NCBI GenBank assembly: GCA_028279065.1
Contig: JANQSY010000037.1
Coordinates: 1-39,948 of the forward strand
Reading direction: 5' to 3'
DNA: 39,948 nt
DNA from: Cytophagales bacterium
Lineage (GTDB): Bacteria > Bacteroidota > Bacteroidia > Cytophagales > CCMP332
Shown here: positions 36,760 to 37,779 of the stretch, one piece after another
How positions within the stretch are numbered: the stretch's first letter is position 1
How the letters are laid out: each line of letters begins with the position of its first letter
Made by a program: the position numbers and the translations under genes
The notes under the pieces: generated by a model
Told to the model about the DNA's origin: nothing
Seen by the model: only the letters and a program-made list of their open reading frames with translations
The model's database searches: none

Positions 36760-37120
36760 GGGGCCGACTGGTTTTGACAGGATGAACCGGTCTATTGTTT
36801 GCATGCCGGGTTTTGTAAGGGATCCCGTAAAAAACTTTCAATTCTTATTTGGCGAAGAATCATACGCCTTAGCTGCCTAATTAGGATAATTAGATAGCTT
36901 TAGTCCTCTGGTTGTTTGAACTGCCACGGCTAGGTCTAGGACTTCGAATCGCGGTTCACCCTCTGGAAGCCGATATCGATCCAGGGGGTCATTTAGGTAT
37001 CAACCCGAAAACTATTGGTCTGTTCCGGCACCTGGTTTTCGGTAACCGTCGGGACTAAGCATGTAGAAGGCAATACGATAGGCATATCTGGACGCGGGTT
37101 CGATTCCCGCCGGCTCCACC
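36760..37120 (+). ncRNA. ssrA: tmRNA (transfer-messenger RNA)
   Basis: tmRNA rescues stalled ribosomes with SmpB and adds a degradation tag. The 5' end GGGGCCGACTGG pairs with the 3' end CGGCTCC (37111-37117), closing a tRNA-like acceptor stem. The T arm GCGGGTTCGATTCCCGC (37094-37110) is perfect. The reading frame ends at TAA 36878-36880 and encodes GEESYALAA from GGC at 36851. That codon is my choice because it lies 24 nt behind GTAAAAA, about the spacing in E. coli, and because GEESYAMAA is the tag I recall from Cytophaga. The final A of CCA is not encoded (CC then T), so it must be added by enzyme. A one-piece tmRNA, with pseudoknot-like GC blocks between. Confidence 0.95.
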
Positions 37121-37125
37121 TTCGC
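37115..37125 (+). repeat. Direct repeat, copy 1 (tmRNA 3' end)
   Basis: TCCACCTTCGC covers the last six bases of tmRNA and five bases beyond. The same 11 bp return at 37681-37691. Both copies run directly into a palindrome. Candidate attachment or target-site repeat of the GIY-YIG unit. Confidence 0.55.
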
Positions 37126-37162
37126 TCGCCGAAGCCAATCTATTGGCGAAGGCGAGCGTTTT
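37121..37162 (+). terminator. Hairpin terminator behind tmRNA
   Basis: CGCTCGCC (37123-37130) pairs with GGCGAGCG (37151-37158), with an inner stem CCAAT/ATTGG, followed by TTTT (37159-37162). It starts one base behind tmRNA. Its arm sequences (GGCGAGC, GCCGAAGC) are shared with the dispersed repeat at 37198, so it seems to be made from the same repeat family. Confidence 0.75.
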
Positions 37163-37197
37163 CATATAATTCAAAATAACCTATTCTTCAACATTCA

Positions 37198-37221
37198 GGC
37201 GAGCTTCGGCGGACGCCGTCC
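37198..37221 (+). repeat. 24-bp GC-rich repeat, copy 1
   Basis: A sequence starting GGCGAGCTTCGGCGG and ending GGACGCCGTCC, matching copy 2 at 37756-37779 in 22 of 24 positions. The end can fold as GGAC-GCC-GTCC. It stands out by GC content from the AT-rich surroundings and lies 38 bp before the GIY-YIG start. Confidence 0.75.
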
Positions 37222-37259
37222 ACCAAGTTTGTATATTGATAGAGTAAAGTCCCTTTAAA

Positions 37260-37517
37260 ATGTACTCCGTCTATATCCTTAAATGTTCGGATTCTTCACA
37301 TTATACTGGTTGCACATCCGATTTTGATGCGAGGCTTGATCGACACAAGCGAGGTTTAGTAAAATCAACCAAGTACAGATTACCCGTAAAACCAGAGGTC
37401 ATTATCAATTTTGAAGACAAATACAAGGCTTTCTTTTTTGAGAAATATTTGAAGACAGGTTCAGGAAGGGCTTTTGCGAAACGTCATTTTCTTAGAGACT
37501 TCAGAAAGGAAGATTAA
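37260..37517 (+). CDS. Small GIY-YIG endonuclease-like protein
   Basis: A single-domain protein of 85 residues. The motif appears as VYILKC and HYTGCTSD (residues 4-21), with the catalytic Arg25 in DARLDRHKRG and the metal-binding Glu61 in FFFEKYLK. The ending TGSGRAFAKRHF is typical of the UPF0213/YhbQ-like small GIY-YIG group common in Bacteroidota. All expected catalytic residues seem present. Small members are usually annotated as UvrC-like, but no UvrC domains are here. It stands alone between tmRNA and a 372-bp gene-free stretch, bracketed by 24-bp repeats and an 11-bp direct repeat, which suggests a mobile or selfish role; that role is inference. Confidence 0.88.
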   Translation: MYSVYILKCSDSSHYTGCTSDFDARLDRHKRGLVKSTKYRLPVKPEVIINFEDKYKAFFFEKYLKTGSGRAFAKRHFLRDFRKED

Positions 37518-37680
37518 TATGGTTTAGACTTGCCTGCGCCCGGCGTAACCGGGTGTTTCGGGGGAATGACCGCCGGCTTTGCTTTCGCCCGTATCAAAAA
37601 CAACTTTGTTAATGAAGTATTTGGGATTCATTGAATTCAACTTTTCAAATCAAAGAAGGATTTGGCTCCAGCAAACAAAG

Positions 37681-37691
37681 TCCACCTTCGC
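37681..37691 (+). repeat. Direct repeat, copy 2
   Basis: TCCACCTTCGC, identical to the tmRNA 3' junction at 37115-37125 and 566 bp away. A further short match to tmRNA, GGCTCCA, lies just upstream at 37664-37670. The copy runs into the palindrome at 37690. Confidence 0.55.
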
Positions 37692-37713
37692 CCTGTGGTA
37701 ATTACCACAGGGC
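37690..37713. repeat. Perfect 24-bp palindrome
   Basis: The half GCCCTGTGGTAA is followed by its exact reverse complement TTACCACAGGGC. As RNA it would fold into a 10-bp or longer hairpin. A loose T-rich stretch (ATTTACTTTT) follows, so it may act as a terminator; a protein-binding site is also possible. Confidence 0.7.
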
Positions 37714-37755
37714 ATTTACTTTTAGTTCCCGACTTTTTTTCTTTTCAAAATTCCT

Positions 37756-37779
37756 GGCGAGCTATGGCGGACGCCGTCC
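37756..37779 (+). repeat. 24-bp GC-rich repeat, copy 2
   Basis: Matches copy 1 (37198-37221) in 22 of 24 positions, in the same orientation, 239 bp behind the GIY-YIG stop. The two copies bracket the gene. Confidence 0.75.

Follow-up and report, generated by a model that had tools for sequence, protein, structure and literature searches.

The tmRNA locus

The window is the whole stretch of DNA that was analysed, 39,948 bp from contig JANQSY010000037.1 of Cytophagales bacterium assembly GCA_028279065.1. The target gene is a tmRNA gene (ssrA) at 36760–37121 of the forward strand, the strand of all features below, with the acceptor end CGGCTCC-A-CC at approximately 37111–37120. ARAGORN missed this gene; it was identified using Rfam (RF00023, 135.5 bits).

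A sequence-only reading had pointed out that the 11-mer TCCACCTTCGC is repeated exactly 566 bp apart and that each copy runs into a palindrome, and this was confirmed. Its two positions, 37115 and 37681, are the only ones in the window, where 0.01 occurrences are expected. The copy at 37115 lies across the 3′ end of the tmRNA and is followed by a terminator hairpin with arms CGCTCGCC (37123–37130) and GGCGAGCG (37151–37158); the second leads into a perfect 24-bp palindrome (37690–37713) and then T-rich sequence. A 24-nt direct repeat that this reading had not mentioned, GGCGAGCTNNGGCGGACGCCGTCC, starts at 37198 and 37756 with 22/24 identities (92%), an expected count of 0.00, and no further site in the whole genome. 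Since its spacing (558 bp) is close to that of the 11-mer, a block of approximately 100 bp is duplicated around the intervening gene, not an 11-bp coincidence. Block copy 1 (37115–37221) comprises TCCACCTTCGC at the tmRNA end, the hairpin at 37123–37158 and the 24-nt GGCGAGCTTCGGCGGACGCCGTCC at 37198–37221. Block copy 2 (37681–37779), defined by these repeats and by pairwise block alignment, comprises TCCACCTTCGC, the terminator-like palindrome, a degenerate middle and GGCGAGCTATGGCGGACGCCGTCC at 37756–37779.

Between the blocks lies an ORF for an 85-aa GIY-YIG nuclease (37260–37517; PF01541, 41.7 bits), the proposed mobility enzyme. The invariant columns of the domain are all intact (Y5, Y15/G17, R25, H29, E61 and K65), so that a catalytic domain with its active-site residues stands in a freestanding ORF, as in homing endonucleases. 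It is the only plausible gene between the repeats, and no integrase or transposase was found in the window unit. A possible extra fragment of a decayed tmRNA end, CCGCCGGCTTTGCTTTCGCCCG at 37570–37591, matches 37107–37128 at 17/22 positions. As a third copy it was considered weak and set aside; 45 of 1000 shuffled sequences scored equally high.

Direct repeats around small GIY-YIG genes

The window genome has ten PF01541 matches, eight of them small standalone genes. Most of these small genes lie between direct repeats whose sequence is different at each locus, and two adjoin the genes for tRNA-Asp and tRNA-Asn. After the gene at tRNA-Asn there is a decayed second GIY-YIG fragment (L004:1755–1900, contig C19), which suggests the trace of a former second unit.

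The main survey covered 135 loci, mostly from Bacteroidia, with profile A3 and 80 further loci from across the class. Flanks upstream and downstream of each gene were compared by Smith-Waterman alignment, and sliding placements in the same contigs served as controls. In the first test 39 of 60 genes scored at least 34, versus 1.3% of 4911 control placements. Across the class a score of at least 40 was reached by 123/164 small GIY-YIG genes and by 31/3024 control placements. At that same threshold inverted repeats were found in only 19/164, and an inverted-repeat transposon was rejected.

The genes are also found next to tRNA and tmRNA genes (together, tDNA). A tDNA lay within 450 nt of 107/167 small GIY-YIG genes but only 26/3024 control placements, and for 105 of these 107 genes a tDNA on the same strand was present, the other 2 having one only on the opposite strand. 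For about one third of the GIY-YIG genes ARAGORN detected no tRNA or tmRNA neighbour. The sequence-only reading had proposed looking for further copies of this design at tRNA and tmRNA ends, and they are present both in the same genome and across the class. Beyond Bacteroidota the design extends to Patescibacteria, where GIY-YIG genes beside tRNA genes have direct repeats at two loci, L352 (46/47) and L361 (21/21).

Anatomy of the units

A unit is approximately 250–570 bp long and consists of a gene for a GIY-YIG nuclease of 75–100 aa and a duplicate of part of the target tDNA, mostly the 3′ part with the terminator and less often the 5′ part. In the common type the order is complete tRNA gene and terminator, nuclease gene, then displaced tRNA 3′ part and terminator. 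In the other type a displaced tRNA 5′ part precedes the nuclease gene, which is followed by the complete tRNA gene. As in tDNA islands, a displaced fragment of the target thus forms a direct repeat; units of this length are too small to hold an integrase, and neither they nor the window unit contain an integrase gene.

Units also occur in tandem: three at tRNA-Leu in genome G035 (345 bp), three at tRNA-Met in G049, eight in G258 and ten, with a period of 457 bp, adjoining tRNA-Met in G202 (L246; G202:C9:906043–910392). The ten units of the last array are near-identical, nuclease gene included. The ORF may run into the tDNA piece: the G035 ORF has its stop codon within the anticodon loop that is duplicated, and the 5′ end of tRNA-Arg supplies the codons for the C-terminus WFHSSTG in G002. 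Displaced tRNA copies often hold inserted palindromes, such as TCCCGAnnnnTCGGGA and CCTGCCTGCCGGCAGGCAGG, in the D, anticodon or T loops (L057, L066, L067, L108, L115, L117, L123, L124, L126, L128 and L132). In the tRNA-Leu group the same palindrome is at the same position in several species.

Target specificity and the tmRNA lineage

Nuclease lineages are tied to their target sites, as are those of homing elements. Among 92 tRNA-assigned genes the best cross-family protein match was at a tRNA of the same isotype in 55%, versus 9% with shuffled labels (0/2000). The other 45% of best matches were at a different isotype. Because proximity was the sole basis for assigning some targets, the association of lineage with target is probably understated. 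A tree of 118 proteins requires 49 target changes, versus 88 with shuffled labels (minimum 80). The corresponding values without the loci from the tmRNA search are 40 and 67.

The best class-wide match of the window protein is L282 (64% identity; 101 bits, versus 79 for the next), which lies downstream of a tmRNA gene with a duplicated tmRNA end. Since both proteins are encoded at tmRNA genes, a joint profile was predicted to find tmRNA-adjacent genes. With this profile 395 genomes were searched and 29 other loci were taken (E up to 1e-18). Thirteen of the 29 (L282 included, as L288) lie immediately downstream of a tmRNA gene and share its strand, and they span nine families beyond that of the window; most of the remaining loci are at Ser, Asp or Ala tRNA genes. 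A search of viral contigs gave no member of the window lineage. A clear direct repeat is still present at 7 of the 14 tmRNA loci, window included, one of them with 48/48 identities. For the tmRNA-associated pair L290/L293 dN is 0.040 and dS 1.125; the nuclease is under strong purifying selection.

This lineage has a conserved non-coding left end, made up of the hairpin CCTTCGC(C/T)C..CCGAAG and the motif GGCTWCGGYGGAC...GTCC. The latter was found upstream of 17/35 lineage genes and in 0/97 control windows. Block copy 1 of the window (37115–37221) agrees with this left end. Among the tmRNAs examined, a TTCGC-type terminator (CCACC-TTCGC-hairpin) directly follows 15 of the 16 that have the gene and 1 of the 48 that do not. 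The sequence-only reading had taken the second palindrome of the window for the original tmRNA terminator. These terminator counts lend that no support, and the idea was rejected on finding that block copy 2 repeats the left-end motifs of the element. Because both window copies carry these motifs, block copy 2 is another element end, either a decayed second unit or a displaced end.

Empty and occupied sites

Occupancy is patchy, with empty alleles, at the tRNA-Leu site of one genus, g33, that of G035. In three of its genomes (G062, G082 and G095) the tRNA-Leu flanks are joined with one repeat copy, as an empty site, and in four others the site is occupied (G035, with its three units, G068, G081 and G067). 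Repeat copies in these four are 95–100% identical within a species and 69–87% between species, and dS between their nuclease genes is above 1. Such repeats could be recent independent insertions or homogenised copies; either fits continuing activity. A fifth species, G096, has a decayed copy (L171; 64%).

Occupancy is also patchy at tmRNA, where no clean virgin/occupied pair was found among the compared genomes. Empty sites, which the sequence-only reading had proposed to look for at ssrA, do exist, and tRNA-Leu shows them best. In a sister family G002 has a tmRNA without the gene; the left-end signature is retained there, so the site may be a scar rather than virgin, and G002 was dropped as a clean empty site. 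The four carriers in genus g63 are set apart from non-carriers by the tmRNA acceptor pair and upstream sequence as well, and insertion and ancestry are therefore confounded. This genus had raised the idea that the acceptor 3′ end comes with the element, which was dropped since changes in the 5′ acceptor strand and in upstream sequence go together with those in the 3′ end. At L323 and L336 the tmRNA has no nuclease gene within 1400 nt, and its 3′ end recurs just behind it in degenerate form, perhaps as the scar of a lost element.

Proposed mechanism and alternatives

From their sequence features the units appear to act as a homing endonuclease element. The nuclease would recognise and break its cognate tDNA, and a copy of the unit, homologous through its flanking tDNA piece, would serve in recombinational repair of the break. 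Such repair would insert the unit while a single complete tDNA remained. If the reaction recurred, or if repeats recombined unequally, tandem arrays would form and the repeat copies would stay alike. We judge that the window locus probably belongs, in partly decayed form, to a family of mobile elements that carry a single gene and target tRNA and tmRNA genes. On this reading the window copy, of a lineage rich in tmRNA sites, has kept its ORF intact, its repeats have diverged, and its second unit has been lost or reduced. The sequence-only reading had seen at the tmRNA end a small GIY-YIG unit with its own terminator, in the topology of a tDNA island and with neither integrase nor transposase, and that description is upheld. 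So is its choice of the GIY-YIG protein as the putative mobility enzyme, as the sole candidate in the unit.

The same element could use another chemistry. The nuclease might nick the two strands at positions separated by 50–110 bp, such as the two borders of the segment made up of tRNA 3′ half and terminator. Capture of the insert would then create a long target-site duplication and involve no homology-directed homing. The occupied tRNA-Leu loci invite this reading, since the non-duplicated insert, from just after the terminator to the anticodon loop, is approximately the ORF alone and approximately 100 bp are duplicated; repeats that differ at every target are likewise what target-site duplications predict. 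However, conversion or recurrent recombination explains more easily that copies have species-specific identity and share a palindrome at the same position, the tmRNA lineage has its own conserved left end, and we know of no precedent for such long staggers among GIY-YIG enzymes. We regard this chemistry as unlikely.

Homing by the nuclease could also be mistaken where the GIY-YIG gene is a passenger, with the repeats and palindromes at tDNA moved in trans by an integrase or a REP-type HUH transposase. The tDNA is a classic integrase target and REP-like palindromes are common within the displaced copies, but the GIY-YIG nuclease is the one protein common to all units, its lineage follows the target and it is strongly conserved by selection. 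A passenger role is quite improbable on this evidence.

We also give little credence to an immobile host gene that happens to lie near tDNA, with repeats arising by tandem duplication between terminators or tRNA ends. Purifying selection and tandem arrays would both be expected of such a gene. Direct repeats, however, flank 80/104 tDNA-adjacent GIY-YIG genes and 0/156 placements at tRNA genes without the nuclease (from eighty tRNA genes distant from any such nuclease). The distribution also argues against immobility: the A4 lineage is present in only 29/395 genomes, empty and occupied sites occur in one genus, and each genome has many different tDNA targets. Chance or an assembly artefact is practically ruled out, since even though the window repeat is short and eroded (2 of the 247 placements used as controls in this contig also reached its local alignment score of 45), its 11-mer and 24-mer recur jointly against the low expected counts given above, and the same design in many independent assemblies, together with the control placements, refutes this as a general explanation.

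Relation to known systems

The units are most likely minimal, tDNA-targeted, homing-like elements that resemble phage SegB. SegB is a GIY-YIG endonuclease that generates tandem units of tRNA gene and segB through cleavage and homologous recombination (PMC13096335), the recombination taking place at microhomology shared by the 5′ end of the tRNA gene and the 3′ end of segB. The tRNA genes near segB showed no isotype preference (PMC13096335). With SegB and the freestanding Seg homing endonucleases of T4 and T6 the units share a freestanding GIY-YIG gene adjoining tRNA genes, and with SegB also the occurrence of arrays and, in some cases, an ORF 3′ end that enters the duplicated tRNA piece. They differ from SegB in residing in bacterial chromosomes, in ORFs of only 75–100 aa, in using tmRNA as a further target, in having a displaced tDNA piece and terminator on the other side of the gene, and in a nuclease lineage that follows the target isotype. 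The comparison with SegB was made at the level of architecture.

Like the tRNA- and tmRNA-targeted islands of tyrosine integrases (Islander, PMC4383910), the units are bounded by a complete tDNA on one side and, on the other, by a displaced fragment that forms a direct repeat. Unlike those islands they have no integrase, measure 250–570 bp instead of many kilobases, may duplicate the 5′ part and form tandem arrays. A further parallel comes from the mitochondrial atp6 and atp9 genes of Glomus and Allomyces, where, in the sections of PMC3630166 on which we draw, insertion of an endonuclease ORF has left the target gene with its 3′ end in duplicate, the old end remaining downstream. These fungal ORFs are of LAGLIDADG type, and in atp9 of GIY-YIG type, according to the same sections (PMC3630166). 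The shared feature, as described there, is duplication of the target 3′ end by insertion of the ORF; the fungal ORFs are longer, their target is a protein-coding mitochondrial gene, and those sections of PMC3630166 describe no tDNA and no tandem arrays.

No account of such units in bacterial chromosomes was found in the open-licence papers searched. The view of the sequence-only reading that no such element had been described holds to that extent, but SegB and the fungal mobile ORFs are close in kind. On the features collected here, there is a good likelihood that the units form a previously undescribed class of minimal, autonomous mobile element of bacterial chromosomes: a single GIY-YIG gene of approximately 80 codons, homing to tRNA and tmRNA genes, in lineages tied to isotypes (one largely to tmRNA), partly duplicating the target and leaving it functional, forming tandem arrays, common in Bacteroidia and present in Patescibacteria. 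If so, the class would account for the several small GIY-YIG genes per Bacteroidota genome and give an origin for many tRNA and tmRNA fragments in these genomes. Targeting of tDNA would be possible without an integrase. At 75–100 aa per ORF they would rank with the smallest known autonomous mobile elements. Their nucleases would be tied to particular tRNA genes, and they would provide a chromosomal counterpart of the recently described SegB tRNA-gene amplification in phage T6.

REP/RAYT systems (REPtrons, REPINs) are similar in that a small nuclease or transposase gene is bracketed by palindromic intergenic repeats. RAYTs, however, are HUH (Y1) transposases whereas the window protein is a GIY-YIG nuclease, and REPs are dispersed in many copies whereas the window 24-mer occurs only twice in the genome; identity with REP/RAYT was rejected on both counts. 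A second GIY-YIG subfamily, not at tRNA genes, has longer direct repeats of REP-like intergenic sequence on both sides (L059, L061, L062, L063, L129, L133, L137, L139 and L143) and looks like a separate, parallel system.
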